Positions 5,388 to 61,707 of a DNA stretch of 64,000 nucleotides are shown piece after piece. The DNA is from Streptomyces sp. ICC1 (GTDB lineage: Bacteria > Actinomycetota > Actinomycetes > Streptomycetales > Streptomycetaceae). The stretch is taken from the NCBI RefSeq assembly GCF_003287935.1, contig NZ_CP030287.1, positions 1 to 64,000 on the forward strand, given 5' to 3'. Under the pieces are notes generated by a model. It saw only the letters and a list, made by a program, of their open reading frames with translations. It ran no database searches and was not told where the DNA came from. Made by a program: the position numbers and the translations under genes. Positions within the stretch are counted from its first letter, which is position 1. Each line of letters begins with the position of its first letter.

Positions 5388-5824
5388 GTGGCTCTCTCCC
5401 AGGCCGAGGCAGACCTGACGCCGGGGCGCCCGGCGGGACCCGGACCCGGAGCGGTCACCTCCGAGGAGTACGTAACGAAGCGCGTTGCCGAACCCAGAGT
5501 CGGCTTGCTCACGGAGGAGTTGCACCGCGGCTACTGCCGACTGCACCTGGTGCTGTTCCCGGGGGAGCTGGAACCTTGACCAGCTCACTCCGCCCCACAT
5601 CCGTGAGTGGCGATCCCACCATCCGGCGGCGCCGAATACGCCGACCACGGTTGCCACGTCGCAGTCCTCGGAGAAGGCCGCGCCGAATCCACCAACACTC
5701 GGACCACGAGCGTCAGAGGGAGGTCACCGGTGGGCTGGATGGGATGGTGCGGGCCGCTCGGCGGAAGGTCGTTGACCAGGCCGGTCAGGCGTCAAGTGGG
5801 GCGCAAGTGGTGCGGGACTCCTGA
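5388..5824 (+). pseudogene. Degenerate tyrosine integrase
   Basis: Four pieces in shifting frames match the intact integrase at 54240-55391 in order: a piece reading LLTEELHRGYCRLHLVL (compare TTDELYRRLLRLHVLPG), LDQLTPPHIREWR (compare LDEITPPTVRTWR), QSSEKAA (identical), and QHSDHERQREVTGGLDGMVR (compare QHSDDERQQEVAGGIDARVR). The catalytic arginine region is deleted. 21 bases over QSSEKAA are identical to the intact gene. The last codons run into the left arm of the decayed att block, the usual place for int next to attP. This is the best evidence that this integrase subfamily acts on the tRNA-Gly site. Confidence 0.82.
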
Positions 5825-5945
5825 ATGGGTCTGGACAACGGAGAAGGCCCAGGTCGCTGACCTGGGCGAGAGGTGTGTCGCCAGGGTCCATCCATACCCG
5901 AATTGACCGCTGTTCACCGCTCCGAAGGGCATGCATGGGGCACGG
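5790..5945. other. Decayed att block (tRNA core lost)
   Basis: The left arm (AAGTGGTGCGGGACTCCTGAA, shared with the block at 18.43 kb) is followed by most of the hairpin AAGGCCCAGGTCGCTGACC at 5844-5867. The right arm TTGACCGCTGTTCACCGCTC, GAAGGGCATGCATGGGGCACG lies at 5903-5943. The second half of the hairpin and the whole tRNA-derived core between them are missing, so this site can no longer recombine in the normal way. Confidence 0.75.
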
Positions 5946-6098
5946 TTGCAGAACGTCGCGGCCGGTGCTCCCTGTGGCGCGGCGACGGTGACACAACGGC
6001 CCCGGCACATTCACACGCCGGGGCCGCCCTTCCGGGCCGCGGCACGTGAGAGTGCAATGACCCATCTATCAGGCTATGCCTGTGGCGAACTTCCGGCA

Positions 6099-6470
6099 TC
6101 AGGGACATGGGCGTGACGGCGATCGTGACAAGGGCAACGCCGAAGCGGGTTCGCCGAAGCCGGCGAGATCAGGCAGCGCCCCGTAGCGGACGCTTCCGCG
6201 ATGACTGCGGACGAGGCAGCCTTGGCCGGTGTACCGGAAGGCGTAGAGCGGCAGGCCGGAGCCGTCGAAGCGCTCGGGTCCCGGCGCGTAGGAATACGGG
6301 GCGCCGTGCTTGGAGCTGGCCACGGCCACGGCCCTGATGTCGTGCGGTGCGGCCGCGTCGGCCTGGGCAGCGGTGACATTTGGCGTGATCGAGGTGCCAA
6401 CTCCCGTGAGTGGGCCGCGATCATGCGGGGCGGGCTCTCTGCCGCTGGCATATTGCGCAGAAAGCTGCAT
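6099..6470 (-). pseudogene. NlpC/P60-type peptidase fragment, catalytic Cys lost
   Basis: The 123-residue frame contains ASSKHGAPYSYAPGPERFDG followed by SGLPLYAF, which lines up with the NlpC/P60 motif in which FDCSG carries the nucleophilic cysteine. Here the Cys is Gly. The downstream His motif is not present: after about 50 residues the sequence degenerates into Arg/Ser-rich text. There is no signal peptide. I read it as a decayed cell-wall peptidase gene. The 270 bp before it (5830-6098) hold only the att remnant. Confidence 0.6.
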
Positions 6471-6710
6471 CGGGGTGCGGCCGATTCGGGGGGATTTTCG
6501 ATTATCCGGGTCGCCTCGAGACGGTATTCGGATTCCTGTTAATTTGAACCGGAAAATATGGCCGGCCGGGTGCGGAGAATGAGAATTATGGTCGTTCTTC
6601 GCTCGACGTGAATCACCGTGTACGACACGGAGCCAAGGCGGATCCGGCGGCCCCGGCCGTGGCAGTCTGTTCGCCAGTGCAAGGTTTTTTGGAGCGGAGG
6701 TACGCGTCCC

Positions 6711-7643
6711 GTGGGCGTCACTGTGAATCCCACCGTCAGCAGACGCCGACTGGGGTCGGAGCTGCGCCGGCTTCGGGAGATCAGCGGAATGACGACGCAG
6801 CAGGTGGCGGAACGCCTGCTGATCTCCCAGCCCAAGATCAGCCTGCTGGAGAACGGCCGCCGACTCATCAAGCCGCGCGACGTGCGCGATCTCTGCGGGC
6901 TGTACGGAGTCCAGGACCAGCGGCGCGTTGACCACCTGATGCAACTGGCCAAGGAATCGGGTCAGCAGGGCTGGTGGAACTCCTACGGCGATATCTCGTA
7001 CGGCGCCTACATCGGCCTGGAGGCCGAGGCGGCCGCGATCCGTGTCTACGAGCCCATGGTGATCCCCGGCCTGCTGCAGACTCCCGCCTACGCCCAGGCG
7101 GTCATCGCAGGAACGATCCCTCACGCCACGGCCGAACAGGCCGCCACGCGTCTCCAGGTGCGGCTGCGGCGTCAGAGCCGGCTGGATGCCCTGCGCAACC
7201 CGCTGCGCTTATGGGCCGTACTGGACGAATCGGCGCTGCGGCGCGTCGTGGGCAGTCGTGAGGTCATGCGCGAACAGCTGGACCATTTGATCAACCTCAG
7301 CGCCCAGCCGCACATCACCCTGCAGGTCCTCCCTCACGATGTGGGTGCGCATCCGGGTGTCTCGGGACAGTTCGCGCTGCTCGAATTTGCCGACGCCACC
7401 GATGTGAGCGTGGTGTATCTGGAAAGGTTCACCAGCGACCTCTATCTGGAGAAACGATCCGACGTGCGGCTCTACAGCGATATGTATGCGCACTTGCAGG
7501 CCCAGGCGCTGGGCCCGGACCGTACGCGGCATTTCGTCGCCGCAGTCGTCACGACGTACGGCCATACGGAATTCCGGCCTGACCCCCGCCGGCCAGGGCA
7601 GGGAGTTCAGTGCGTGCAGGCACCCTGCCCCTCGATGTCCTGA
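6711..7643 (+). CDS. XRE-family regulator with DUF5753
   Basis: A protein of 310 residues. An N-terminal XRE helix-turn-helix (about 15-70: LGSELRRLREISGMTTQQVA, then ISQPKISLLENG) is followed by the DUF5753 region with YEPMVIPGLLQTPAYAQAVI and, towards the end, PHDVGAHPGVSGQFALLEF and VVYLE. This is the abundant Streptomyces regulator family, normally paired with a small DUF397 gene. No DUF397 gene follows here, so it may be an orphan left by rearrangement. GTG at 6711 has GGAGCGGAGG ten bases upstream; the ATG at 6618 lacks a good ribosome site. Confidence 0.88.
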   Translation: MGVTVNPTVSRRRLGSELRRLREISGMTTQQVAERLLISQPKISLLENGRRLIKPRDVRDLCGLYGVQDQRRVDHLMQLAKESGQQGWWNSYGDISYGAYIGLEAEAAAIRVYEPMVIPGLLQTPAYAQAVIAGTIPHATAEQAATRLQVRLRRQSRLDALRNPLRLWAVLDESALRRVVGSREVMREQLDHLINLSAQPHITLQVLPHDVGAHPGVSGQFALLEFADATDVSVVYLERFTSDLYLEKRSDVRLYSDMYAHLQAQALGPDRTRHFVAAVVTTYGHTEFRPDPRRPGQGVQCVQAPCPSMS

Positions 7644-7762
7644 CGGCCAGTCCGTCCGTGAATCCGGCCGCCGGATGATTCCTCACCTCCAACTCCTCTC
7701 CCTGCGCGGGTTGTTCTGAGCCGCCGGACCTGGGTCCGGACCTGGGTCCCCCGAGGGTCACC

Positions 7763-7791
7763 GAGCCCCTGGACGACGAGTCCAGGGGCTC
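7763..7791. terminator. Bidirectional terminator
   Basis: The perfect inverted repeat GAGCCCCTGGA / TCCAGGGGCTC with a 7-base loop lies between the convergent XRE regulator and the ice-binding protein gene. Confidence 0.75.
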
Positions 7792-7889
7792 AGCCGCCGA
7801 ACGGCTGACAGGGCGCCGCGTGCGCGTGACCGAGCGTCAGCCCAGGCCTCCGATGGCTCAGGGCGTGAGGTGGTCACGTCCGCGATGGG

Positions 7890-9731
7890 CTAGTCCTGTC
7901 GAGTCGCCGTACGTCGGACTCTCTTCATGGTGAAGAGGACCGAGACTCCGAGGAAGGCGAGGGCGGCTGCGGAGACGGGCAAGATGCCGAGCCCGCTGCT
8001 CGCGTGGTTCGCGGCGAGTACGGGCGATGCTCCCTCCGGCTGCTGGCGGGTAGCGGCGCTCACGTGGGCGAAGTTGACGCTCTTGGCCGTGTGGCCGGCA
8101 CCCATGGGGCCCAGAACACCGTCGAGGTTGCCCGGCAGGAAGCCGGCCCCTGGAGGCTTGCCGTGGTTGCCGTGACCGTGACCGTGGCCGGGTCCGCCGT
8201 CGTCGGGCCCGTCGTGGCCGTGGCCGTGCTCGCCGTCGTCCTCGTCCTCGTCGTCGTGACCGTGGCCCGGTCCGCCCTCGTCGTGGTCGTGGTCGTGGTG
8301 CCCGTGGCCGTGCTCGCCGTGGTCACCCTTTCCACCCTTGTCGCCGCGCGGCCCCTTGGGCCCTGCAGGTCCGGCGGGTCCTGCGGGTCCCGCGGGTCCG
8401 GCGGGTCCGGCGGGCCCAGCGGGTCCTGCGGGTCCGGGTGCGCCGACGGGTCCGGAGCTGCCGACCGGGCCGGGCGAGCCGTCAGGGCCGGGAGCGCCGG
8501 TCGGACCGGGGCTGCCGGGGGAGCCGGGGGCACCGGGCGAGCCGTCAGGGCCGGGAGCGCCGGTCGGACCGGGGCTGCCGGGGGCACCGGGCGAGCCGTC
8601 AGGGCCGGGAGCGCCGGTCGGGCCGGGACTGCCGGGGGAGCCGGGGGCACCGGGCGAGCCGTCAGGGCCGGGACTGCCGGTCGGACCGGGGCTGCCGGTC
8701 GGGCCGGGACTGCCGATCGGGCCAGGGCTGCCGGTCGGGCCAGGGGCGCCGGGCGAGCCGGTCGGGCCGGGCGAGCCGTCAGGGCCGGGCGAGCCGGTCG
8801 GGCCGGGCGAGCCGTCAGGGCCGGGCGAGCCGGTCGGACCGGGCGAGCCGTCAGGGCCAGGAGCGCCGGTCGGTCCGGGCGAACCCGTGGGACCGGGCGA
8901 ACCCGTGGGGCCGGGCGAACCCGTGGGGCCGGGCGAACCTGTCGGTCCGGGAGGCCCCGGCGGGCCAACGGCGCAAGCCGCCCTCGTAATGGTGTTGTTG
9001 TCCAGCGTGACCGCGCCGTTGCGCGCGAGGGCGCGGCCTTCGATCACGGCGCCGGTGTTCACCGAGATGGACTCCAGGGCCAGGATGTTGCCCTTGAACT
9101 GGGAGGTCGTGTCGATGGTGGCGGAGCTGCCCACCTGCCAGAACACGTTGCAGGCGTTCGCTCCGTTGATGAAGGCCACGACACTCGCCGGAGCCGTGAT
9201 CAGGGTCGAGGGGATCCGGAAGATGAAGACGGAGGCGGGGTCGTTCTGGCCGTCGAGAGTGACCGTGCCGGTGATGCCCACGGTCGACGGGGCTGTGTAG
9301 ACGCCGGGCGCCAGCGTGAGTCCGCCGATCTCGGCCGAAGCGAGCACGTTCCCTGGTCCCCGGCCTGCCGCGTCGTTGTAGGCGGTGACGAGGTCGTTCT
9401 TCGCCTGAAGGGCGGCGGCGTTGGGGGCGATGCGCTGCACTCCGTTGACGATGCCGGGCGGAAAGCCGGTCACCGATGTGCCCGGATAGAGTCCCAGGTC
9501 GCCGTTGATGATGGTGGGGGTGTTCGTGTTGGTGACCGTCGAACCGGCCAGAACCGCGTAGTTGGTGGCGGTCCCCAGCCCCACGGGAGCTTCCGCGGCG
9601 TGAGCGAAGCTCGGGACCAGGGTGGCCGCCGCAAAGAGCGCGGTGGGCAGCAGGAAGATGGCTCCCCGTTTGAGCACTCTGCGTTGAGGCGTTCGGTCGG
9701 GCGGATCCGACCGAATGGCATCCAATGCCAT
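7890..9731 (-). CDS. Ice-binding (DUF3494) surface protein with collagen-like stalk and His/Asp-rich region
   Basis: A protein of 613 residues. A long basic signal peptide (cleavage probably after FAHA, near residue 45) is followed by a DUF3494 beta-solenoid domain (about 50-250: [43 protein letters not shown]). Residues about 256-464 are Gly-X-Y collagen-like repeats, mostly GSPGPTGS and GAPGPDGS units. Then comes a region of about 75 residues rich in His, Asp, Glu and Gly ([12 protein letters not shown]), and finally a membrane helix (about 585-605) with a KRVRR tail. No LPXTG is visible, so it is probably membrane-anchored. DUF3494 proteins bind ice or act as adhesins; the acidic-His part suggests metal or calcium binding. 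No partner genes are adjacent. Confidence 0.85.
8340..8965. repeat. Collagen-type coding repeats (9- to 18-bp units)
   Basis: On the plus strand the unit reads about GGGCGAGCCGTCAGGGCCG in many imperfect tandem copies, encoding Gly-X-Y triplets on the minus strand. Blocks of about 60-110 bp recur almost exactly (compare 8540-8600 with 8590-8650), as expected for slippage and length variation. This is protein-coding repetition and not a CRISPR array. Confidence 0.9.
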
Positions 9732-10509
9732 AGCAGGACCTTTCTGTTGCTTGGCGCCTCAGTCCTCCCGAAGGAGAACCACGGCCGCTCGTGACGATCA
9801 CTGGCCAGGGCGGAGGGCCCCCTACCTGCGATCCCTCGCGAAGGCTCACCCTGAGCAGGGGCCGCCGAGCGGCTCCCTGCCAGAGGTAGTGATACGCCGT
9901 TACCCGGTAGTACTCACGCATATTTCAGAGCAATAGGCCGTATATCAGAAAAATAGGTCTGCATGGGTGACGGAATGTCAGGAAGGTGGAAACGTCTCGC
10001 ACGCACATGCGAATCTGTCGCGCCGTCAAAGCGGACAGGGCGCGTCGGGCCGGGCCCGAACTGCTTGGACGGGATTGTGGGATCGGCGGCTTCGCATCCG
10101 GAAGCCCGTGACGCGGGCGCAGGTGGCGCTCCGTAGGGAGTCGCTGCGACCGGGCCATGGGGTCCCAGCCTTCTTGGTCACCGAGTCCGCGCAGCCAGAA
10201 GGCCTGGCCGGCCTCGGCCTCCACCAGAAGCTGTGCGGGTCGCCTGTCGTCAAGTGAGGCCCACCAAAAGGTGTGCTGGCGAGGGTGCGGCGGCGGTCGA
10301 GGCCGTGGATGTCCATGGCGGGGCCGCCGGGGCAGGCGAAGGCCGCCACCTCCGGTGTCGTATGCCGGTATCCGGTGGCGGCGGGTCGGCGGGTCGGCGG
10401 GTCGGCGGGTCGGCGGGTCGGCTCGGCCTGGACGCACCTACCGGAACCTGGTCCGTGCCCGTGCCTGTCATCCGTGGTCGGTCGTCATCCGCACTGTCAA
10501 CTGCCCGTC
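9732..10509. other. Intergenic stretch without a supported gene
   Basis: The open frames here have no recognisable domains. The part just upstream of the ice-binding gene (about 9900-9965) is unusually AT-rich and probably holds its promoter. A tandem repeat lies at 10382-10421. Confidence 0.5.
10382..10421. repeat. Five tandem copies of CGGGTCGG
   Basis: Perfect 8-bp tandem repeats, too GC-rich and short to assign a function; a typical slippage-prone simple repeat. Confidence 0.85.
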
Positions 10510-10526
10510 ATTACCCCTGAGGTAAT
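10510..10526. promoter_or_regulatory. Candidate operator ATTACC-N5-GGTAAT
   Basis: The dyad ATTACCCCTGAGGTAAT is AT-rich against its surroundings and lies 70 bp before the start of the secreted SnoaL-like gene. Its size fits a dimeric repressor. No regulator gene is adjacent, so the binding protein is unknown. Confidence 0.45.
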
Positions 10527-10596
10527 CGTTCTCTCTGGCGCCCTCGAAGAAGCTTGGTCCATCGAAGCGATCAAGCGATCACGAACGGGGAACGAC

Positions 10597-11598
10597 ATGA
10601 ACATGCGGCGGTACACGCGCACCGGAGTGTTCGCGGCGGCCACTCTCCTCGCAGGCCTCACCATCGGTGCCGCGCCGGCCACCGCCACCGCCGAGGGCGG
10701 CGAGTGCGCCGAGGTCCGCGAGAAGGTAGACCGGCTCGAAGGGCGGATCACCCCGAACGCCTGCGCATTCATGAAGCGGCAGATCGTCTTCGGCGAGGCC
10801 CCCAGCCTCCAGACCTACCTGGACATCTTCGACGAGGAGGCCAGCCTCTGGGAGGCCGGCGGCAAGCCCCAGCGCGGCCACGAAGTGATCGGCGCCTCGA
10901 TCAGCAACTCACTCCGCCTTGTGCCGGACCTCCGCTACCGCGGCACGAACGTGGTCGCCGACGGCGCCGTGATGATGTTCGGCCAGCAGAACACGGTCAC
11001 CCTCAAGGGCCACAAGGTCAGCTACCCGCAGATCGCCCGCAACGTCCTCGGCGATGACGGCAAGACCATCCAGGCCCGCCGCTACTACGACCGCTACGAG
11101 CTGTTCCAGGTCTTGCCCGAGTCTCAGCGGCCCCGCCCCCTCTTCGCCGGCATCGCCGACCCGGCCGGCCCCGGCCCGCGCGGAGCGGCCCCCGACCGGT
11201 TCCACGCCCAGGAAATCCCCGCCCGCCTCGCCGCCTGGAACAGCGGGGACGCTGCCGCGCTGGCCGCCCGTACCGGCAACGCCAAGCTGGCCGGGCCCGG
11301 CCTGGACCGGTCGCTGACCACCCGGGAGGGCAAGACCGCCTACCTGCAGCGACTGTTCGAGAACGCCGACGTCGAGTTCAAGGCGGGCCAGGTCGCCTTC
11401 GGCCGCACCACCACCTACATCGAGTGGCACGGCACGATGACCGACCCCAAGGGCACCGACCCCAAGGGCACCGACATCCCCTTCGGGATCGTCGAGCGCA
11501 TCGGCCCGAAGGGCGAGTGGGAGCTCTACTTCGACACCCTGCCGGTGATCGCGGACGAGGACGAGATCCGCGGCCTGTTCAAGGCGCTCGCGAGCTAG
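10597..11598 (+). CDS. Secreted protein with two SnoaL/NTF2-like domains
   Basis: A protein of 333 residues with a signal peptide (MNMRRYTRTG, then a hydrophobic stretch, cleavage after ATA near residue 32). Residues about 45-165 and 195-325 look like two tandem SnoaL-like (NTF2 fold) units: each starts with a helix, has a D/E-rich turn (YLDIFDEEASLWEAGG and ARLAAWNSGDAAALAA) and ends in beta strands. Such domains bind or isomerise small hydrophobic molecules, but no catalytic residues can be assigned. A short duplication PKGTDPKGTD is present near residue 285. GGGGAACG precedes the ATG. Confidence 0.65.
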   Translation: MNMRRYTRTGVFAAATLLAGLTIGAAPATATAEGGECAEVREKVDRLEGRITPNACAFMKRQIVFGEAPSLQTYLDIFDEEASLWEAGGKPQRGHEVIGASISNSLRLVPDLRYRGTNVVADGAVMMFGQQNTVTLKGHKVSYPQIARNVLGDDGKTIQARRYYDRYELFQVLPESQRPRPLFAGIADPAGPGPRGAAPDRFHAQEIPARLAAWNSGDAAALAARTGNAKLAGPGLDRSLTTREGKTAYLQRLFENADVEFKAGQVAFGRTTTYIEWHGTMTDPKGTDPKGTDIPFGIVERIGPKGEWELYFDTLPVIADEDEIRGLFKALAS

Positions 11599-11735
11599 GT
11601 GCGGTCGTGCACAGACCGCTCCCTGAGCTGGCCTCCGGCCCGCCGGAACAACTGCGGTTCAGTGTGAACGAAGGACGCCGGTGGTGGGTCATGACGAACA
11701 CCGGGGAGTGCAACGGCGGCTCATCACCCTCGGCA

Positions 11736-11768
11736 TGTTCACCGCTCTGAAGGCAGGGATGGGGCACG
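11736..11768. other. Isolated att right-arm remnant
   Basis: TGTTCACCGCTCTGAAGGC, AGGGATGGGGCACG closely matches the distal right arm of the full att blocks (TGTTCACCGCTCCGAAGGGC, ACGGATGGGGCACG). No core or hairpin precedes it. The stretch from 11599 to about 12070 has no gene I can support, so this is probably the stump of a module largely deleted when the next block formed. Confidence 0.6.
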
Positions 11769-12069
11769 CCCCCGGGCGGTCGGCTGGAGTGTCACTCGGG
11801 TAGTCCTCGCCCCGACGGTGGTGTGCGCGCCGGGAGACTGCGCTGTCCAGGTCGTCGAGGCCAGGGTGTCCGGGGTGGAATTCCAGCAGGCCGCCGTCGG
11901 CGCGCCGGGAATCCAGGAGCGCCGGGGTGGCGGTGCGGCCGGCACGGTGCGGGGCAAGCGCCGACCCGGTTTCGGCGGCGCCGTAGGACGGCGGGAGGTG
12001 CCAGTCGGAGAGGCCCGGTCCGCCCGGTCGGTTCCGGCCGGCAGCGACTCGGCGAGCAATCTGGAGCGC

Positions 12070-12335
12070 CGTCAGGGCAGTTATGGCACGCGAATGGCAC
12101 GCGGGCCGGGAGAGGTCCAGACAACGAAGAAGGCCCAGGTCGCTGACCTGGGCCTTCTTGCAAGAGCGGATGACGGGAATCGAACCCGCGCTATAAGCTT
12201 GGGAATCCATGCGCGGAACGTTCTCGTACGGCTCCTGACCTGCGAAAATCGGCCCTGCTGGGTTTCCATCGGGGCCTATCCGTGCTCCGGTCTTGACCGC
12301 TGTTGGCCGCCCCTAAGGGCACGGTTGGGGCACGT
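12070..12335 (-). other. Complete att block, tRNA-Gly 3' half (left end of M2)
   Basis: Left arm with TATGGCACGCGAATGGCACG at 12081-12100, hairpin AAGAAGGCCCAGGTC / GACCTGGGCCTTCTT at 12127-12159, tRNA-derived core of 41 bp at 12165-12205, then CTGACCTGCGAAAA and the right arm TTGACCGCTGTTGGCCGCC, CTAAGGGCACGGTTGGGGCAC ending at 12333. The left arm reads YGTRMARG in the plus direction, similar to the last codons of Streptomyces integrases, so it is probably the 3' end of a lost int. Confidence 0.85.
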
Positions 12336-12454
12336 CCTTCACGGTGGCCCCCGTGAAGGGATCTGAGCCGCCGGACCGTCTGCGAGGTGCCATCGGCCGT
12401 ACGCGGCTGCGCCCGGGATTGCTGCGGCAAGGAGTCGGGCCGGGTCCCCGGCCG

Positions 12455-13963: not shown

Positions 13964-13981
13964 CTCACCACTCAACACTAT

Positions 13982-17610: not shown

Positions 17611-17612
17611 TC

Positions 17613-53028: not shown

Positions 53029-53231
53029 GAAGCTCCTCTACGTGCGGGCCACATGGGACGGCAATCCCGGCCTCGCAGGTCAGTCGTTCAGGGATGGGCG
53101 GCGTGAGGTTTGCGCTTTGGGCCCCTCGGTGTTGGACCACCGGGGGGCTTTTTGCATGTCTGGCTACGGGATGGCGGGCTCCAGGGGATCGCTGCGGTCT
53201 TCTGGGGATGATCGAATCGTACCACAGATTA

Positions 53232-53261
53232 TGCGGTTCGCAGAGATCTATGCGAACCGCA
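53232..53261. promoter_or_regulatory. Operator: 11-bp perfect inverted repeat
   Basis: TGCGGTTCGCA-N8-TGCGAACCGCA lies between the divergent helicase and XRE genes, with AT-rich flanks (ACCACAGATTATG). It is 67 bp before the XRE start and is the likely binding site of that repressor, placed to control both directions. Confidence 0.7.
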
Positions 53262-53327
53262 GAAGGTGATGTATGGTTTTGGCATGCCGCGAAACTGTGG
53301 CCGCCGCAGCAACAGGAAGGAGGGGTG

Positions 53328-53819: not shown

Positions 53820-54021
53820 CCGCACCCCTCTCCACTCCGCTGCCCTGGGCCCGCAAACCCCCAGGTCGCAGCCGTAGTACCGCCCATCCCATCCCTGAAC
53901 GACACACCGGCCGGCTCAGGGGGTTGCCGCCCCCGCCCAGCCCGGCCAGAAACCGGAGCACTGCTTGCGCCACCAGGCGATACCCCACACCTCCACCCAG
54001 CGCCCGCGCACCGCGAAGGAG

Positions 54022-54240
54022 GTGACCACCCCCGACACCTTCCTCACCGTGGAGCAGGCCGCCGAACGCCTCGGCACCGGTGTGCGCTTCATCCGGCGCC
54101 TCATCCAGGAACGCCGCATCGGCTACGCCAAGTTCGGCAAGCACGTCCGCATCGCCGACAGCGTCCTGTCCGCGTACATCGACGCGAGCACCGTCCCCAC
54201 CCTCCGCGACGCCCGTTCCCGCTTCGGGAAGGCGGCCTGA
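54022..54240 (+). CDS. Excisionase-type HTH protein (Xis)
   Basis: A protein of 72 residues: FLTVEQAAERLGTGVRFIRR, then QERRIGYAKFGKHVRIADSV, a complete MerR/Xis-like winged helix. Its stop shares the ATGA with the integrase start (54240). It would bend DNA at attL/attR and favour excision. The start is uncertain: AAGGAGG sits only one or two bases before GTG 54022, and an in-frame ATG lies at 53965. Confidence 0.8.
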   Translation: MTTPDTFLTVEQAAERLGTGVRFIRRLIQERRIGYAKFGKHVRIADSVLSAYIDASTVPTLRDARSRFGKAA

Positions 54241-55391
54241 TGGCGGCCCGCAAGCCGCAGCGGCGGCGCGAATTCGGCACCACCCGCCAGCTCCCGTCCG
54301 GCCGTTGGCAGGCCCGGTACTGGGCGCCCGACGGTAGTCGGCGCACGGCTCCGGAGACCTTCGCGACGAAGACGGACGCGCAGGACTGGCTGACCCTCAC
54401 CAAGGCGGACATCCAGCGCAACCACTGGACCGACCCCGACGTGGGCAAGGTCAACTTCGAGGAGTACGCGCTCAAGTGGGTGGACGAGCGGGGCCTCGCC
54501 GCCACCACGGACGAGCTCTACCGCCGGCTCCTGCGCCTGCACGTCCTCCCCGGCTTCGGTGACCTCGACCTGGACGAGATCACCCCGCCGACCGTGCGAA
54601 CTTGGCGGGCCGAGCGCCTGACCGTCACCGGCGCCACGACGGTGGCCAAGTGCTACCGGCTACTGAGGGCCATCATGGAGACGGCGACCGACGACGAGCT
54701 GATCCGCCGCAACCCGTGCCGCATCAGGGGCGCGGGCAGCGAACAGGCCAAGGAGCGCTCGACCGCGACCGTCGCCCAGGTCGACGCCCTCGCCGAGGCC
54801 ATGGGCCCGCGCTGGCGGCTGATGGTCTACTTCTGCGCCTACGGCCCGATGCGCCCAGAGGAGCAGGCGGCCCTGCGCCGGACCTCGGTCACCCTGGACC
54901 CCCTCGCCGTACGGATCACGGAGGCGGCCCCGGAGCTGAACACCGGCCGCCGCGTCGAGGGCGACACCAAGTCGGCGGCGGGCGTCCGCACCATCCACCT
55001 GCCGGCCTTCCTCTACATGGAGGTCAAGCGGCACCTGGACTGGTTCGCGGAGAAGGAGCCCGACGGCCTGCTGTTCGTGGGGGAGAAGGGAGCACCGTTC
55101 CGGCGCACGTCCTTCGGCCGCAAGTGGGCCAAGGCCCGCGCGAAGGTCGGACTGCCGAAGGACTTCCGCTTCTACGACCTGCGCCACACCGGCCACACCC
55201 TCTCCACGCAGTCCGGCGCGACCCTCAAGGACACGATGGTCCGCGCCGGCCAGTCCTCGGAGAAGGCCGCGATGATCTACCAGCACTCCGACGACGAACG
55301 TCAGCAGGAGGTCGCCGGAGGCATCGACGCACGGGTCCGCGCCGCCCGCCAGAAGGCGCCGCCGAAGCCGCAGCTCGCGCGGGAAGCATGA
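54240..55391 (+). CDS. int: Tyrosine recombinase (integrase)
   Basis: A protein of 383 residues. An N-terminal AP2-like/arm-binding domain (about 10-55) and a SAM-like core-binding domain (about 70-165) precede the catalytic domain. The catalytic residues are Arg205 (YGPMRPEE), Lys244, Arg315 (FYDLRHTG) and the nucleophile Tyr347 (MIYQHSDDER). The usual His before LR is Tyr312 and the usual His/Trp of the LGH box is Gln338 (RAGQSS). The gene overlaps xis. It is the only full integrase in the window and matches the pseudogene beside the oldest att remnant, so it probably uses the tRNA-Gly site. It lies 6.2 kb from the tRNA, which is unusual. Confidence 0.9.
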   Translation: MAARKPQRRREFGTTRQLPSGRWQARYWAPDGSRRTAPETFATKTDAQDWLTLTKADIQRNHWTDPDVGKVNFEEYALKWVDERGLAATTDELYRRLLRLHVLPGFGDLDLDEITPPTVRTWRAERLTVTGATTVAKCYRLLRAIMETATDDELIRRNPCRIRGAGSEQAKERSTATVAQVDALAEAMGPRWRLMVYFCAYGPMRPEEQAALRRTSVTLDPLAVRITEAAPELNTGRRVEGDTKSAAGVRTIHLPAFLYMEVKRHLDWFAEKEPDGLLFVGEKGAPFRRTSFGRKWAKARAKVGLPKDFRFYDLRHTGHTLSTQSGATLKDTMVRAGQSSEKAAMIYQHSDDERQQEVAGGIDARVRAARQKAPPKPQLAREA

Positions 55392-55397
55392 CCGGCA

Positions 55398-55428
55398 GGG
55401 GCGGAGGCAAGGGAATTGCCTCCGCCCC
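55398..55428. terminator. Terminator after the integrase
   Basis: The perfect 13-bp inverted repeat GGGGCGGAGGCAA / TTGCCTCCGCCCC starts seven bases after the int stop codon. Confidence 0.85.
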
Positions 55429-55573
55429 GTGCGTCGGCGAGGCCACTCGGCATCGGAACCCATTCAAGGGACTGCGTGGCCCGTCGTCAGGGACCATTCG
55501 GCCCATGCCAGGAGCGGGGCGGCGCTGGACGATGTGAGTGAAGGCTTTCGTGGCCGTCGGGAGGTGATCGGTC

Positions 55574-55840
55574 GTGATGTTCTGGTACAACCACGACGTC
55601 AGCGGCTGGGGCTGGTTCGCGATGTCGGTCGGCATGATCCTGTTCTGGGCGCTGATCATCACCGTTGCGGTGCTGCTCTTCCGGGCTATCGCCCGCCCCC
55701 ACGAGCACACCCACGTGCCTGCGACGCCGAGTCCCGAGCAGGTCCTTGCCGCCCGGCTCGCTCGTGGCGAGATCGACGAGGACGACTACCGTCGCCGCCT
55801 CGGCGCCCTGCGCCGGGCCGGTCCCGACCCTCAACCATGA
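55574..55840 (+). CDS. Small SHOCT-domain membrane protein
   Basis: A protein of 88 residues. A helix (about 15-38) is followed by a His-containing linker (HEHTHV) and a C-terminal SHOCT motif (PEQVLAARLARGEIDEDDYR, then RRL). This is the YHS/SHOCT-type small protein often found with copper ATPases. GGGAGG lies nine bases before GTG 55574. First gene of the metal cluster. Confidence 0.78.
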   Translation: MMFWYNHDVSGWGWFAMSVGMILFWALIITVAVLLFRAIARPHEHTHVPATPSPEQVLAARLARGEIDEDDYRRRLGALRRAGPDPQP

Positions 55841-55892
55841 GGACGCGCGGGCACAGCACGCTCCCGCCCTCCCCCGAGGAAAGCGAGACGCC

Positions 55893-56132
55893 GTGAACAC
55901 CAACCGCAATTACGGCCTATACGCCATCGCCGCGGCGATCGTTCTGGTCGGAGCCCTCGCACTGGGAATCCCGCTGGCGGCCCTGGCCTGGATCGCGATC
56001 ATTGCCATGTGCCCGCTGATGATGTTCTTCATGATGCGAGGCATGCGCGACAACAGGGACGGCCACGACATGCAGGAAATGGAGGACATGGACCGCAGGC
56101 ACGACGACCATCCCAGGCCCCGACGGAAGTGA
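55893..56132 (+). CDS. DUF2933-like small membrane protein
   Basis: A protein of 79 residues. Two helices (about 10-28 and 30-50) are followed by a Met-, Asp- and His-rich tail (RDGHDMQEMEDMDRRHDDHP). DUF2933 proteins occur with copper and heavy-metal genes; the Met/His tail fits Cu binding. GTG 55893 follows GAGGAAAG. Confidence 0.75.
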   Translation: MNTNRNYGLYAIAAAIVLVGALALGIPLAALAWIAIIAMCPLMMFFMMRGMRDNRDGHDMQEMEDMDRRHDDHPRPRRK

Positions 56133-56329
56133 CCGCCTGGCAGGGGGCGGGAGGCGGGCACGTCCCGACTGACACCGCTGTCACGGGAACGTCGCCCTGC
56201 TCCCCTTCCGCGCCGTCATGCGCCCGCGTGCCGTATCAGCCGTTGCGGCGCGGCTGCGACCGCCGCAGGCTGCTGGCAGGCGAACCGTTTACATGGATGA
56301 GCACGTACGCGCCCAGGAGCTGAACGCGC

Positions 56330-58780
56330 ATGAGGCACCCGCCAGGACTTGGACCAAGCGATCCGCGAAAGGATCGGAGCACGGCGGTGCTGGACGTGCG
56401 GGGCATGGTGCGTGCCAGTCAGCAGAACACCGTCGCCGCTGTTCTGGGCCGCCGGCCGGGGGTCCTGGACGTCGAGGTCAACCCCGTGGCGCAGTCGGCC
56501 ACCGTCGTCTTCGACCCGACGCGGACCTCACTGGCCGAGCTGCGCGGCTGGGTGACCGAGTGCGGCTACCACTGCGCCGGCCAGTCGGTGCCGTCGCACA
56601 TCTGCGACCCGATGGACGAGCCTGACCCGCCCGGCCCCGCGCGAGCGCCCGAAGCCGTGCGGCCCGCGCACGTGGGGCACGAGCCAGAGGTCATGCACTC
56701 GCCCCACGAGGCGACGGTGGAGGATGACGGCCATCACGGTCATGGCGGCCATGCGGGGATGTCGATGGCGGCGATGGCCGCCGACATGCGCAACCGCTTC
56801 CTCGTCGCGGTGATCTTCTCCATTCCGATCGTGATCTGGTCCCCGATCGGCGAGGAGGTCTTCGGCTGGCACGTGCCCGTGCCGTTCGGGCTCCGCCAGG
56901 ACGTGTGGGCGCTCCTGCTGAGCCTGCCGGTGATCTTCTACTCGTGCTCGATCTTCTTCGTCGGCGCCGTACGGGCGCTGCGCGCCCGGACGCTGGACAT
57001 GATGGTGCTGGTGGCGGTCGCCGTCGGCGCGGGCTGGCTGTACTCCCTCATCGTCACGCTCACCGGCGGCGGGGACGTCTTCTACGAGGCCGCCACCGTG
57101 CTGGCGTCCTTCGTCCTGCTCGGCCACTGGTTCGAGATGCGCGCCCGCGGAGGCGCCAACGACGCGATCCGCGCCCTGCTGGACCTCGCCCCGCCCAAGG
57201 CCGTCGTCCTGCGGGACGGCGAACCTGTCGAGGTCGCCACCGCCGAGGTGGCCGTCGGTGACCTGCTGCTCGTACGCCCCGGAACGAAGATCGCCGCGGA
57301 CGGGGTCGTGGAGGAGGGCGAGAGCGAGGTCGACGAGTCGACGGTGACGGGGGAGAGCCTGCCGGTGCACAAGGCGCCGGGCTCCGCCGTGGTCGGTGCG
57401 ACCCTCAACGCCAACGGCACCCTGCGGGTACGGGCGACCAGGGTGGGCGCGGACACGGCACTGGCCCAGATCGTCAAGCTGGTCCAGGAGGCCCAGAATT
57501 CGAAGGCGCCGGGCCAGCGGCTCGCCGACCGAGCCGCATTCTGGCTGGTCTTCGTCGCCCTCATCGGCGGTGCGCTCACCCTCGCCGTCTGGCTGCTGGC
57601 CACCGACCGCCCCTTCAGCAGCGCGATGCTCTTCGCGATCACGGTGGTCGTCATCACCTGTCCGGACGCGCTGGGCCTGGCCACTCCCACCGCGATCATG
57701 GTCGGCACCGGCCTGGGGGCCAAGCGGGGAGTTCTGTTCAAGAACGCGATGGCCCTGGAGACGTCCGCCGGGATCCAGACCGTGGTGATGGACAAGACCG
57801 GCACCCTCACCAAGGGCGAACCCGAGGTCACCGAGGTGATCACCGCACCCGGCCGAGACGAGGACGAGATCCTGCGGCTGGTCGCGGCGGTCGAGCGGGA
57901 GTCCGAGCACCCGCTGGCCGAGGCGGTCGTACGCCACGCCGAGTCGCGCGGCGTCGGGCCGGCGCAGGCCCGGCACTTCGAGAACGTTCCCGGCCACGGG
58001 GCGACCGCCGTGGTGGACGGCCACCGGGTCGCCGTGGGCAACCGCCGGCTGGCCGAACGCGAAGGCGTGGACCTCGGTCCTCTGGCCGCCCGGCGGGACG
58101 ACCTCGCGGCCACCGGCCGCACCGTCGTCATCGCCGCTGTCGACGGCCAGGCCGCCGCCCTCATCGGCATCGCCGACGCACCCCGGGAGACCTCCCAGGC
58201 TGCCGTACGCGAACTGCACGCCCTCGGCATCGAGGTCGTCATGCTCACCGGCGACAACCAGGCCACCGCCGAACGGATCGCGCAGCGCCTGGGCATCGAC
58301 ACCGTCATCGCCGAGGTCCTGCCCGGCGACAAGGCCGCCACCATCGCCGAGCTCCAGCACGGCGGCCGCAAGGTCGCCATGGTCGGCGACGGCGTCAACG
58401 ACGCACCCGCCCTCGCCCAGGCCGACCTCGGCATCGCCATCGGCGCCGGCACCGACGTCGCCATCGAGACCGCAGACCTCGTCCTGATGCGCTCCGACCC
58501 CCTCGACGTCCCCACCGCCCTGCGCATCGGCAGGGGCACCCTGCGCAAGATGCGCCAGAACCTCGGCTGGGCCATCGGCTACAACGCCATCGCCCTGCCC
58601 ATCGCCGCAGGCGTCTTCGAACCCGCCACCGGCCTGATCCTGCGCCCCGAGATCGCGGCACTGTCCATGTCCGGATCCAGCATCATCGTCGCCGTCAACG
58701 CCCTCGCCCTCAAACGCCTCCACCTGCCACGCCCGGCCCCTACGGCCCCGGCGGATGGAGGTGATGGCAATGGCCGGTGA
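56330..58780 (+). CDS. P1B-type copper-transporting ATPase (CPD variant)
   Basis: An 816-residue ATPase. A degenerate HMA-like domain spans about 18-80 ([10 protein letters not shown] in place of GMTCxxC). A His/Met-rich segment ([14 protein letters not shown]) lies before helix 1. TGES is followed by the metal-site helix [11 protein letters not shown] with Cys444-Pro-Asp446, phosphorylation motif [11 protein letters not shown] (Asp488), and [16 protein letters not shown]. It exports copper or a related ion. CPD replaces the CPC or CPH of known groups. The start may be ATG 56330 or GTG 56387. Confidence 0.88.
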
Positions 58781-58829
58781 CCTGGCCCAGGTCGCGCGCC
58801 GGGTACGAGTGCGGCCTACGGTGGGAAAT

Positions 58830-59258
58830 GTGACCGTCCGCGAGCCCCGCACCCCGCCGCAGCCCCAGCCGATGCCGCGGCTCAGGCTGCTGCTCGTTCT
58901 CGGACTCACCCTCGGGCTGCTCGGCATGCACGCTCTGGGCACTGCCGCCGCGCTGCCGTCGACGGGCGGCACCGAGCACATGTCCCACCACGTGGCGGCG
59001 GCGCAGGCCGGCCCGCAGTACCTGTGCCCCGACGATGACCCGGGCCCGACCCGCCACGGCGGACACGCGGACCAGATGTGCGCATCCGCGGCCCTGCCCG
59101 GATCCCCCGGCATCGCCGCGCCGGACACCGCGCCCCTCACCGGCATGCCGAGCGGCATCGCCGACGCCTCGGCCGCGCTGCCGCTCGCGCCGGCCTACGA
59201 GCCCGCTGGCGGGCGGGCGCCACCCATGCTCGCCGAACTCCAGATCCTGCGGATATAG
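58830..59258 (+). CDS. DUF6153-like secreted or membrane protein
   Basis: A 142-residue protein with an N-terminal helix (LRLLLVLGLTLGLLGMHALG) followed by a His- and Met-containing exported part (HMSHHV, HGGHADQMC) with two Cys. This is the DUF6153 pattern, common beside copper genes in Streptomyces. GTG 58830 is the last start before the helix. Only 49 bases follow the ATPase stop, so the genes are probably co-transcribed. Confidence 0.65.
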   Translation: MTVREPRTPPQPQPMPRLRLLLVLGLTLGLLGMHALGTAAALPSTGGTEHMSHHVAAAQAGPQYLCPDDDPGPTRHGGHADQMCASAALPGSPGIAAPDTAPLTGMPSGIADASAALPLAPAYEPAGGRAPPMLAELQILRI

Positions 59259-59345
59259 GGGCTCCTCCTGTGGCACGCGCCCGAGGCGCAGGCCACGGAC
59301 GGCCCAGCCCTTCCTTCCCGCATCCGATCACTGGAGCCCAACGAA

Positions 59346-59975
59346 ATGAACACGAACCGATCCCTGCCGCACCGCGCGGCCCTGGCGGCCACCGCGGTCG
59401 CCGCCGGCCTGGTCCTGGCCGCGTGCGGCAGCGACAACAGCGCGAACACGGCCGGAACCACTCCCGCGACCACGACCGCCCCGGCGTCGACGGAGGCCGA
59501 CCGGCACAACCAGGCGGACGTCACCTTCGCGCAGGGGATGATCCCCCACCACCGTCAGGCCATCCTGATGTCCGACATGGTCGCCACCCACGGCGCCTCC
59601 GCCGACGTCAAGACACTCGCGGAGAAAATCAAGAAGGCCCAGGCCCCGGAGATCGAGACCATGTCCGGCTGGCTCAAGGAGTGGGGCGAGAAGGTCCCCA
59701 CCGGCACCAGCATGGACGGCATGGGCCACGGCGACTCCGGCATGCCCGGGATGATGAACGACCAGGACATGAACCAGCTCGGCAACGCCAAGGGCAACGC
59801 CTTCGACACCATGTTCCTGACCATGATGATCGAGCACCACGAAGGCGCCATCGACATGGCCAAGACGGAGAAGCAACAGGGCGCCTACAACCCCGCCAAG
59901 GCCCTGGCCGACGACATCATCACCTCCCAGACCGCCGAGATCGCCCAGATGCGCACCATGCTCAAGACAGGCTGA
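59346..59975 (+). CDS. DUF305 copper-associated lipoprotein
   Basis: A protein of 209 residues. The lipobox is VLAAC (Cys near 27), then a Thr/Ala linker, and a DUF305 ferritin-like helical domain with two repeats: FAQGMIPHHRQAILMSDMV and FLTMMIEHHEGAIDMAKTE. The paired MIPHH/MIEHH motifs bind metal. The middle is Met-rich (MDGMGHGDSGMPGMM). DUF305 proteins often accompany copper export genes and may store copper on the outer membrane face. Confidence 0.88.
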   Translation: MNTNRSLPHRAALAATAVAAGLVLAACGSDNSANTAGTTPATTTAPASTEADRHNQADVTFAQGMIPHHRQAILMSDMVATHGASADVKTLAEKIKKAQAPEIETMSGWLKEWGEKVPTGTSMDGMGHGDSGMPGMMNDQDMNQLGNAKGNAFDTMFLTMMIEHHEGAIDMAKTEKQQGAYNPAKALADDIITSQTAEIAQMRTMLKTG

Positions 59976-59980
59976 CAGCG

Positions 59981-60006
59981 GCAGGGCGGCGACCTCGCCG
60001 CCCTGC
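59981..60006. terminator. Terminator after the DUF305 gene
   Basis: GCAGGGCGGCGA / TCGCCGCCCTGC, a perfect 12-bp repeat with a 2-base centre, begins six bases after the stop codon. Confidence 0.7.
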
Positions 60007-60117
60007 TCCATCAGGGCCGAGCACCGCGGTTCCCTGAACCGGACAAGATCCCCAATTCGTGTGATCAACAACGGGGCTGCCGGACAGTGGGAGATGACAG
60101 CCGGATAGGGTCCCGGC

Positions 60118-60555
60118 ATGGTCACGGCCCGGGCTGCTTTCAGCACGAGGCGGACCCGCCGCCCGGCGGGCCCGCTGCGGCTGCTGTGGCTGGCCGCCCT
60201 GCTGTTCGCCTTCCTCTACACGCACGCCGCCGGAGCCGAAAGCGCCTCCGCGCATGTCACCGGTGGCGGCGTCGCAGTGCCCCACCCGGCGCTCGCGGAG
60301 ACCGAAGGTGCCCGGCCCGACCACGACGAGACGTCCGACGGGCGCGACCACGACAGCGGGCACTCCCACCCCGCCGCGGCGTGCGCCACCATCCACCTGC
60401 AGCAGGGCTGCGACCTGCCCGGCCCGCCACTGGTCCCCCTCGCGGAGCTGGCTCCCGCCGACGCCGGGACGACGCCGCAGTCCTGGTGCCGGACCTTCCC
60501 GGCAAGCCTTCCTTCCTTGCACAGTTCCCTCGGCTCAGTGGTGCAACAGGTATAG
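60118..60555 (+). CDS. Small exported His-rich protein
   Basis: A protein of 145 residues with a signal-like helix (about 20-42), then a polar part with HDETSDGRDHDSGHSHP and three Cys. It looks like a small metal-binding exported protein similar in layout to DUF6153. No clear family. It is followed by the membrane protein at 60666. Confidence 0.55.
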   Translation: MVTARAAFSTRRTRRPAGPLRLLWLAALLFAFLYTHAAGAESASAHVTGGGVAVPHPALAETEGARPDHDETSDGRDHDSGHSHPAAACATIHLQQGCDLPGPPLVPLAELAPADAGTTPQSWCRTFPASLPSLHSSLGSVVQQV

Positions 60556-60665
60556 ATCTGGGCGCTTTGCCCTGATCTGCCCTGACTCTCGTTGTCGACC
60601 CCGGCCCGCCCCACAGCGGGTTCGTCAGCGATGAGCCCCGCCCGCAGCACCCAAGGAACTCGCAC

Positions 60666-61391
60666 ATGACCTCCACCCAGCTCCTCGGCGCCCGGACCCC
60701 AGACGCCGCGCCCGCCCCTCCCGCCGTGGGGCGGGCCGCCCGGCGCAAGCAGCACTCCTCCCGCAAGCGGTCGTTCGCCGCCCGCTACCTCGGATACGTC
60801 GGCTACTTCGTCGGCGCCGGCCTCATCAGCGGCGCGGTCGTCCACCACCCGCTCGACCCCGACCGCTACACCCGAATCGCCGTCTACGGCGCCCTCGTCT
60901 TCCTCGCGGCGACGGTCCTCAACGAGTTCCTCCTTACCCGGGAGCGTCCCGGGCTCCCGCGCATGCTGGCCGTGATCGGCTCCTCGCTGCTGCTCTCGTT
61001 CGGCATCGGCATGCTGAGCGGCGGCCTCCAGCACTTCGACGACTTCCCTGCCCGCGGCGCCGTCCTCGTCCCCGCCGGTCTGGTCGTCTCCTTCGTCGCC
61101 TACGTCATCAAGGACGCAGACACGCCCTGGCACCGGATCTTCGGCCTTGTGGGACTCGCCGTCCTCGCCGTGGCGGCCCTCGCCCTCTTCGGCCTGCGCG
61201 AGGTCGCCGCCTCGATGGAAGGCGCCCCGGGCGGCGGGCACAGCCATGGAACCGAAGGGGAACCGGCAGACAGCCACGGCTCCGCCCCCGAACCGACCGC
61301 ACCCGTACCGACTACCCCTGCCCAGGGCGCCTCTCCCACGCCGAAGCCCTCTTCGCCTGCACCGACCCACAACGACGGGCATGCCCACTAG
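60666..61391 (+). CDS. Membrane protein with His-rich tail
   Basis: A protein of 241 residues with five or six helices (about residues 40-180; GYVGYFVGAGLISGAVVHHP, AVYGALVFLAATVLNEFLL, GSSLLLSFGIGMLSGGLQHF) and a Pro/Thr/His tail (GGGHSHG, ending HNDGHAH). The layout recalls small copper-responsive membrane proteins next to copper ATPases. Function unknown. A strong terminator follows. Confidence 0.65.
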   Translation: MTSTQLLGARTPDAAPAPPAVGRAARRKQHSSRKRSFAARYLGYVGYFVGAGLISGAVVHHPLDPDRYTRIAVYGALVFLAATVLNEFLLTRERPGLPRMLAVIGSSLLLSFGIGMLSGGLQHFDDFPARGAVLVPAGLVVSFVAYVIKDADTPWHRIFGLVGLAVLAVAALALFGLREVAASMEGAPGGGHSHGTEGEPADSHGSAPEPTAPVPTTPAQGASPTPKPSSPAPTHNDGHAH

Positions 61392-61406
61392 GGACTTGCC
61401 GCCAAC

Positions 61407-61442
61407 GGCGGCTTTGTGGAAGCGAATTCACACAAAGCCGCC
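61407..61442. terminator. Terminator of the metal cluster
   Basis: The perfect 12-bp repeat GGCGGCTTTGTG / CACAAAGCCGCC with a 12-base loop lies 16 bases after the stop. Confidence 0.78.
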
Positions 61443-61498
61443 CGAGTGTGGTGCAGGTCACACGAAAGGCGTCTCGCGATTCGAGACGACCTGGGCTT

Positions 61499-61596
61499 GA
61501 GGTGGCCGATGTGGTGCGCCGCGACCCCTCCGAGCAGGCGATTCCCGCGAGTTGGGGCACGCGGAGGGCACGGCAAGGGCTGAGAGGTCTAGACAA
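61499..61596 (+). pseudogene. Integrase 3'-end remnant / left arm at the tRNA
   Basis: One frame reads EVADVVRRDPSEQAIPASWG, then TRRARQG, and resembles the last residues of Streptomyces integrases (SGTxxAR endings). The DNA GAGTTGGGGCACGCGGAGGG includes arm-type GGGGCAC and AGGGCAC repeats. Similar GTxxxxR codings occur in the left arms at 12.09, 16.35 and 27.71 kb. It suggests that an int gene of another subtype once abutted the tRNA here. Confidence 0.4.
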
Positions 61597-61598
61597 CG

Positions 61599-61631
61599 AA
61601 GAAGGCCCAGGTCGCTGACCTGGGCCTTCTT
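61599..61631 (-). terminator. tRNA-Gly terminator hairpin (template of all att hairpins)
   Basis: AAGAAGGCCCAGGTC / GACCTGGGCCTTCTT with a 3-base loop lies five bases after the tRNA 3' end. The same hairpin, in two sequence variants, is at each att block. Confidence 0.85.
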
Positions 61632-61636
61632 GTAAG

Positions 61637-61707
61637 AGCGGATGACGGGAATCGAACCCGCGCTATAAGCTTGGGAAGCTCATGTTCTACCATTAAACTA
61701 CATCCGC
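61637..61707 (-). tRNA. tRNA-Gly (anticodon CCC)
   Basis: The minus strand reads GCGGATG (acceptor), a D-arm with TAATGGTAGA, anticodon loop CTTCCCAAG with CCC at 61673-61675, GGGTTCGATTCCC (T-arm), CATCCGC and the discriminator T: 71 nt with no encoded CCA. The 41 bases from the anticodon to the 3' end are the core repeated at six upstream sites. The gene is intact, so each integration restored it. Confidence 0.95.

Follow-up and report, generated by a model that had tools for sequence, protein, structure and literature searches.

A tandem array of modules at tRNA-Gly(CCC)

We analysed the first 64 kb (the window) of the 9.03-Mb single-contig genome of Streptomyces sp. ICC1, in which a series of gene modules lies in tandem beside a tRNA-Gly(CCC) gene. 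This genome is referred to as G000, and the other G-handles denote congener genomes. Genes were called with a custom codon-usage script. A preceding sequence-only reading of the region had described an array at this tRNA gene with six complete blocks in one recurring order, and scans for the core and for the hairpin confirmed this arrangement. ARAGORN found tRNA-Gly(CCC), on the minus strand, as the sole tRNA gene in the window, with dcd (PF22769) next to it. A mismatch scan of the window placed the 3' part of the tRNA at seven positions including the gene itself, all on the plus strand with 0-1 mismatch each (Table 1); the identity of this core with the tRNA 3' part is as first proposed, and its length is 42 bp instead of 41 bp.

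Six complete blocks lie outside the tRNA, with the order P arm, hairpin, core and P' arm on the plus strand, and, along with the site at the tRNA and a block at 5.8 kb that lacks the core, they split the region from 5.8 to 61.6 kb into seven modules (M1-M7) that measure 6.3, 4.2, 2.0, 9.3, 1.6, 5.1 and 27.0 kb from core to core. Of the size range of 1.4 to 27 kb initially given, the upper end holds and the lower end becomes 1.6 kb. The hairpin pattern, with at most 3 mismatches, had 8 matches at 7 places in the window and 0 in 100 shuffles; one of the 8 is the palindrome read on the other strand, and the hairpin at 18.4 kb exceeds the mismatch limit. The two expected hairpin classes were found, GCCC/GGGC (at 5.8, 12.1 and 16.3 kb and at the tRNA, with a variant at 27.8 kb) and CCCC/GGGG (at 18.5, 29.5 and 34.6 kb), which supports the participation of several related elements. 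A scan of the 40 kb at the far end of the contig (119 N) found no core at up to 10 mismatches.

Table 1. Coordinates of the array and its modules in the window
Feature	Position	Strand	Details
Integrase remnant just ahead of the outermost block	5388..5767	+	tblastn, hidden Markov model (HMM)
Outermost block: P arm, hairpin, P' arm	5790..5958	+	without core
M1	5959..12069		HTH/DUF5753 regulator, ice-binding/collagen-repeat protein, SnoaL-like protein (Pfam)
Block 1	12070..12348	+	core 12164-12205; arm repeats exact on both sides
M2	12349..16331		POT/MFS transporter 12455-14140 (-); FUSC-family protein 14126-16381 (+), extending into block 2 (Pfam)
Block 2	16332..16611	+	core 16426-16467, 1 mismatch; P' repeat present, P repeat not found
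M3	16612..18410	+	HTH_17/AbiEi_2 protein 16822-17610; nucleotidyltransferase-fold protein 17607-18386 (Pfam, homologue names, model)
Block 3	18411..18690	+	core 18505-18546; P' repeat, and P repeat as GGTGC variant
M4	18691..27719		alkyl sulfatase, sulfate permease, DUF7144, Sap/SfLAP, GH15 (Pfam)
Block 4	27720..27998	+	core 27814-27855, 1 mismatch; P repeat with 1 mismatch; P' repeat absent; right end approximate
M5	27999..29389	+	two open reading frames (ORFs) without Pfam match; arm repeat on neither side
Block 5	29390..29668	+	core 29484-29525; arm repeat only in P'
M6	29669..34506		DUF5994, PAS and GAF/SpoIIE proteins, small proteins (Pfam)
Block 6	34507..34786	+	core 34601-34642; P' repeat with 1 mismatch; P repeat not found
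M7, integrase-bearing element	34787..61541		mobility genes with cargo on either side
MobA/VirD2-type relaxase	48011..49711	-	PF03432; part matches the MobB model far under its cut-off
DnaB-N/AAA protein of the element	51511..53019	-	
Excisionase-like HTH_17 protein	53965..54240	+	
Tyrosine integrase, 383 aa	54240..55391	+	PF00589, PF14659, PF22022
Heavy-metal (copper-type) P-type ATPase between integrase and tRNA	56387..58780	+	
tRNA-end att site: P arm, hairpin, core, then tRNA 5' half	61542..61677	+	repeat GGCACGCGGAGGGCAC 80 bp ahead of the core
tRNA-Gly(CCC)	61636..61707	-	ARAGORN; 3' part 61636-61677 is the core common to the blocks

Architecture of the predicted attachment sites

Arm statistics were compiled over 25 loci, with 89 blocks for the P arms and 64 non-tRNA blocks for the P' arms. 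The motif CTGACCTG (at most 1 mismatch) sits at +29/+30 in 57 of the 64 P' arms and anywhere in 61, against a background of 19% of random 260-mers that contain it somewhere, and GACCGCTGTTSACCGC (at most 3 mismatches) lies at +88 to +91 in 48 P' arms and anywhere in 56 (control 1.4%). A direct repeat, GGYRC-N6-GGYRC, with its halves 11 bp apart, is exact in 30/64 P' arms (control 0.9%), 26 of these at +111 to +113, and in 28/89 P arms (control 1.3%), 23 of these at -78 to -80; the exact form is absent from about half of the P' arms and about two thirds of the P arms. In the window, the P' motifs of all six blocks lie at 29/30, 89/90 and 112/113, the third motif being non-specific alone. Between the arm motifs the DNA varies across blocks, and such a combination of fixed spacing and variable intervening DNA resembles the arm-type or accessory sites of an integrase, not a block duplication. 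Furthermore, the fourth pair of the hairpin is C-G in 44 and G-C in 35 of the 83 alignable blocks among the 89, a swap which indicates that pairing is maintained despite sequence change. On these features, the blocks are predicted integrase attachment sites with P and P' arms.

Recent duplication of the blocks was ruled out, since outside core and hairpin they have only the fixed-spacing motifs in common, as the sequence-only reading had expected. The same reading took the internal blocks for attL/attR hybrids; we found P-core-P' junctions instead. In each internal block the P side of a module meets the P' side of its successor, which makes the block attP-like, and the only hybrid site is the one at the tRNA end (P-core-tRNA 5'). 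Junctions of this type match what would be predicted for serial integration in which each new element enters at the tRNA end. For canonical excision, the tRNA site would most simply pair with the outermost site, the core of which is lost here. Counted from its 3' end, the tRNA is identical to the core as far as the anticodon loop (TTCCCAA, tRNA strand), and the point at which the identity stops suggests that strand exchange may occur there; anticodon-centred sites are one of two common classes in the Islander account (PMC4383910). Both arm repeats, at up to 1 mismatch, are present in M1, M3, M4 and M7, exact in M3 and with one mismatch in one repeat in the other three, the P' arm of M1 coming from a looser scan. 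Two weaker signals were discarded: a GGCACG repeat at 3 mismatches, which is not evidence alone as 68% of random 260-mers match it, and a looser GGGCACGNNTGGGGCACG scan of the window, which gave 11 matches against a mean of 4.4 and a maximum of 11 in shuffles and was replaced by the stricter repeat.

M7 and the integrase-less modules M1-M6

PF00589 is matched in the window only at 54777-55298, within M7. That only the last module has an intact integrase was therefore confirmed; the broken copy at 5388-5767 stops about 25 bp short of the P arm of the outermost block. The intact gene has as neighbours an xis-like gene, a regulator and the genes for the DnaB-N/AAA protein, a DUF2637 protein and the MobA/VirD2 relaxase. 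Among the M7 genes scanned with Pfam, which did not include every small ORF, there was no TraB/FtsK, coupling or type IV secretion system domain. With its own integrase, xis and relaxase and no conjugation machinery among those genes, M7 resembles an integrative and mobilisable element (IME); it is not like an actinomycete integrative and conjugative element (AICE), for which an FtsK/SpoIIIE-type TraB translocase would be expected and was not seen among the M7 proteins scanned. As in islands that target tRNA genes with a tyrosine recombinase, the repeat is the 3' part of the tRNA and the gene is restored. The integrase scored 13 bits with the integron integrase model (cut-off 265) and each block is a core site with an arm on either side, which sets the array apart from integrons, attC itself not having been searched. 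Relatives of the integrase in 871 phage records were all under 60% identity (best listed 39%), and plasmid records held no near relative (best 62% identity over 74% of the integrase).

Neither tblastn nor the family HMM found an integrase in M1-M6, and no transfer domain was detected among their genes scanned with Pfam, a set that likewise did not cover every small ORF. Integrase-query matches at the blocks were discounted, because stop-to-stop query frames had read through into the att site. Lacking integrase and transfer genes among those scanned, and bordered by att sites of the kind found in an integrative and conjugative element (ICE) or IME (M1 being core-less on its left side), M1-M6 are predicted integrase-less cassettes, or cis-mobilisable elements (CIMEs). 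A defence-system library yielded no more than weak matches. In M1, the protein at 7890-9677 has an ice-binding domain followed by collagen-like repeats.

In the first M3 protein, Pfam detects HTH_17 and AbiEi_2 (24.3 bits, cut-off 21), and an excisionase HTH model also matches; the second has no Pfam match. Among 120 listed of 614 homologues of the second protein, one is named as AbiEii/AbiGii toxin family and the name of one starts with 'Nucleotidyl transf', while most others are hypothetical or unnamed. Only one PDB entry matched its structural model (mean predicted local distance difference test score, pLDDT, 91.1) at E <= 0.001, namely a chain from the MenAT1 toxin-antitoxin complex (E 1.1e-4, TM-scores 0.40/0.52). 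From domain matches and the model, M3 is likely a putative AbiE-like toxin-antitoxin pair.

Arrays and integrases across the genus

The frequency of such arrays was estimated in an even sample of 48 other congeners (match threshold E <= 1e-8) and in 24 relatives, with 40-60 kb read each, that form a biased set since they were chosen mostly from the best matches of an earlier search; that search, with two candidates scored in each genome, did not serve for array sizes. At least two matches were counted by hand in 28 of the 48, and an extra match on the contig of the tRNA was present in 25 (partial in G057). Core scans of 12 of the 20 single-match genomes revealed extra blocks in G012, G018, G044 and G059, and none within the 18-38 kb read in the eight others, so that at least 29 of the 48 congeners have an extra block. 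In the biased set 21 of 24 have one, none being found within 40-60 kb in G014, G400 and G006. Arrays at tRNA-Gly(CCC) are common in the genus, and six blocks in a row, which had been thought unusual for Streptomyces, are equalled in G004, G333 and G064 with 6 extra blocks each. Among the matches listed in our literature search, no report of arrays at Streptomyces tRNA-Gly was found.

A full-length integrase of this family (at least 60% identity, no stop) is present at the locus in 9 of the 48 congeners (G002, G006, G018, G022, G024, G042, G045, G051 and G062), and in those nine no block was seen between integrase and tRNA. Among all loci read, eight multi-module arrays contain an intact integrase (G000, G018, G024, G239, G322, G399, G062 and G305), which is held by the tRNA-proximal module in all eight, with a second one in the next module of G239; such placement would arise at random about once in 8400 (a product of chances, with M1 counted as a module). 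Moreover, 14 of the 24 relatives have an extra block and no intact integrase of this family. Seven of these 14 arrays (G004, G333, G053, G113, G386, G225 and G283) have no PF00589 match inside them, with short integrase remnants in G333 and G113 by the family HMM; integrases of other families were searched only in these seven genomes and in the window genome.

The whole array side of the tRNA is variable in L189-L200 and in the loci of the 24 relatives. Blocks were also seen far from the tRNA locus, in G069 (L168, about 2.17 Mb), G053 (L169, 1.45 Mb; L170, 7.39 Mb) and G283 (L171, 4.60 Mb), and are secondary sites or relocated arrays. At L168 the core has 0 mismatch, and the cargo is about 86% like the genome's own tRNA-side module over 3.2 kb.

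Recurrence of the M3 gene pair and of other modules

The second M3 gene was found in 11 of 392 genomes. Three of these have divergent or broken copies with no block in the fetched flank (G401, 66% identity; G213 and G004, fragments). Seven of the eight others have at least one block in the flank (G000, G024, G054, G089, G098, G272, in which the gene has an internal stop, and G305), and in G224 the flank stops at the contig edge. The pair is enclosed by two blocks in G000, G024 and G089. In S. katrae, S. avidinii and G098, its left-hand neighbour is a block and its right-hand one the tRNA site, with 0.75-3 kb of intervening other DNA, and a search of named records gave M3 at no fewer than five loci. 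Comparison of the tRNA-Gly locus across relatives, which the sequence-only reading had suggested as a check, thus found M3 in other species and among other neighbours, with blocks of this kind alongside.

The M3 genes of G000 and G024 are 92.9% identical, with rpoB at 91.9%, whereas G000 shares 93.2-93.4% with the near hosts G089, G098 and G054, with rpoB at 97.4-98.2%. Since the distant host's copy is just as similar as those of the near hosts, at least one interspecies transfer is the simplest reading, and at least one small module, M3, appears from these identities to have moved between species. Module 2 of G239 and the only module of G386 are similar from block to block (5.49 kb at 94.5%), and beyond each module end nothing is similar in the roughly 0.9 kb compared, the G386 copy standing alone at the tRNA.

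Core variants are informative as well. In G062, G022 and G064 the cores match the host's own tRNA variant save for single changes; in G305 (L180-L181) and G225 (L103-L104) tRNA core variants are mixed within one array, and the T-stem of the G305 tRNA differs from that of its older blocks. Mixed variants would fit an incoming element that brings its own tRNA 3' half.

Proposed accretion and its alternatives

We hypothesise that the array was built by repeated accretion of mobilisable elements that decayed into CIMEs, with some exchange of integrase-less cassettes, and we hold this with good confidence. Accretion at tRNA-Gly(CCC), modules without integrase and an integrase-bearing element at the tRNA end, all proposed at the outset, are supported by the data. 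As to the order of events, we infer that elements with a common attachment architecture would enter the 3' part of the tRNA serially, with a tyrosine recombinase probably acting at the anticodon loop, and that each newcomer would rebuild the tRNA 3' half and the terminator-like hairpin and displace older elements outward; M1 would be anchored through the loss of the outermost core. As the sites all have one orientation, Int and Xis should be capable of excising M7 alone or with a run of neighbours from any good block. Transfer of the excised composite to a new cell could follow, and cassettes would remain behind once the integrase-bearing element was lost. A bolder extension, for which our expectation is below even, is a genus-wide cassette-trading site, where integrase-less cassettes with conserved arms would ride any integrase-bearing element, integrase-less arrays would serve as reservoirs, the AbiE-like pair would have been re-stacked in other species and the tRNA 3' half would be rewritten each time.

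Several observations weigh against accretion with exchange. The sites had been called functional-looking, which holds for the four modules with both arms and fails for M2 and M6 (P' repeat only), for M5 (neither repeat at up to 1 mismatch) and for the outermost block with its lost core; on one side of blocks 2, 4, 5 and 6 the arm repeat is absent. No empty site was found in the loci compared, and on the array side no gene was found in more than about 17 loci compared, the conserved genes being on the dcd side. The pairs G239/G386 (module 94.5%, rpoB 96.1%) and G113/G333 (module 91.8%, rpoB 95.1%) fit vertical descent, M3 is congruent with the hosts among G089, G054 and G098 (98.1-98.3%, rpoB 97.0-98.0%), and the M3 copy of G305 is more distant (84-86%, rpoB 91-94%). 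The 24 loci contain no counterpart of M2, M5 or most of the M7 cargo and at most one of M4; among 392 genomes, each scored for two candidates, M5 DNA was detected in its own alone. Finally, the window integrase lies 6.2 kb from the tRNA att site, and M7 may be two fused modules.

This last possibility, an element from 34.6 to about 55.4 kb that ends in the integrase plus a copper cassette from 55.4 to 61.6 kb, with the shared block lost, is conceivable and in our judgement somewhat improbable. The integrase ends 0.09-0.34 kb from a core in G006, G018, G239 (both copies), G322 and G399, and 0.06-0.33 kb in G051, G062 and G305; G377 has a core-less block-type hairpin about 28 bp past its integrase, which makes fusion possible. 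However, past the window integrase there is no core or P' trace, and the nearest hairpin is a 5-mismatch match at 58786; G024 shows nothing, and G214 only 5-mismatch hairpin matches more than 1 kb off. The integrase-tRNA distance is 6 to 13 kb in the window, G024, G377 and G214 (the latter three with integrases 89-96% identical to that of the window) and 3.7 kb in G022.

More broadly, the array could be a fossil, its elements having integrated one by one with their own integrases and decayed in place, so that only M7 has moved since and the similarities reflect common descent. The integrase remnants at 5388-5767 and in other loci, the lost 5.8-kb core, the missing arm repeats, the G239/G386 and G113/G333 modules that are not more similar than rpoB, and the congruent M3 of the three near hosts all agree with this. 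Against it stand the M3 of G000 and G024, too similar for the host distance, the varying M3 neighbours and the P' motif spacing preserved on integrase-less modules, and we see it as a serious alternative that is rather doubtful. It is also conceivable that the blocks are tRNA/terminator duplications or repeats exchanged by homologous recombination and not by an integrase. About 90 bp of hairpin and core of high identity could serve this purpose, and Streptomyces conjugation is able to move chromosomal DNA; yet the fixed-spacing motifs fall outside the identical part, the blocks found share one polarity and integrases of this family occur at this tRNA, which leaves this route quite unlikely.

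Relation to known systems

Tandem islands with and without integration modules, AICE accretion and modular excision are already known. The array resembles CIME-IME/ICE accretion as described in the review PMC5704250, which cites the ICESt1 work in S. thermophilus: integrase-less att-flanked elements lie beside an integrase-bearing element at a target gene, with chimeric internal sites. It differs from what that text describes in its six integrase-less modules, its occurrence in many species of one genus, some integrase-free arrays and cassette recurrence across species. Dehalococcoides likewise has several tandem islands downstream of one RNA gene, ssrA, and 15 islands there lack an integration module and are possibly CIMEs according to the authors (PMC3146451); that account involves a serine recombinase and a 20-bp repeat, in contrast to the tyrosine recombinase, 42-bp core, hairpin and two arms seen here. 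Within Streptomyces, AICE accretion at tRNA-Arg (PMC9513070) and XSAM1 beside pSAM2 (PMC4891641) share the genus, a tRNA target and remnants next to functional elements, and possible cis-mobilisation was raised by the authors; the tRNA-Arg site has one to three AICEs or defective AICEs, whereas a relaxase-type element and several small modules free of mobility genes are found here at tRNA-Gly. PAISt of S. turgidiscabies, as presented in PMC4057263, also consists of modules split by an internal att site, with integrase remnants at internal sites, and its modular excision was demonstrated and a tyrosine recombinase tested; unlike the present array, it lies at bacA, has an 8-bp site and comprises two modules of very large size. 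Methylophilaceae have additive flexible islands in which the final 20 bp of a tRNA gene recur and gene content is variable, but the gene is tRNA-Lys, the phylum is another one and att arms are not described in the sections available of PMC10872708, where the tycheposon also appears as a large cargo transposon with a tRNA and a xerD-type recombinase. Added here are the scale within one genus, the integrase-free arrays, the arms kept on integrase-less cassettes and a host-incongruent cassette.

If cassettes that lack a recombinase retain functional arms and spread from species to species, the role of tRNA-linked accretion in Streptomyces would be somewhat like that of integrons elsewhere: small adaptive modules, such as metal export genes, transporters and toxin-antitoxin-like pairs, would be stored over long periods and served by whichever integrases arrive. 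Tools that demand an integrase in every tandem member would miss arrays of this kind; Islander, which applies that rule, gives 4 tandems of at least three members in 2168 genomes (PMC4383910). Cassette movement can be tested directly with the arm motifs and the M3 cassette.

Other features of M7

The cargo of M7 includes an NsdA-family regulator (41751-43034) and, at 43701-46737, a 43-aa ORF, a JmjC/cupin protein, an aldo/keto reductase and an unknown protein in a row, which could be a small peptide-modification cluster. A NUDIX protein is encoded at 46766-47203; Pif of pSAM2, described as a blocker of redundant transfer (PMC3218068), is likewise a NUDIX protein. Segments 39443-39507 and 40811-40875 form an inverted repeat of 85% identity, which stems from rhodanese domains in two adjacent genes on opposite strands.

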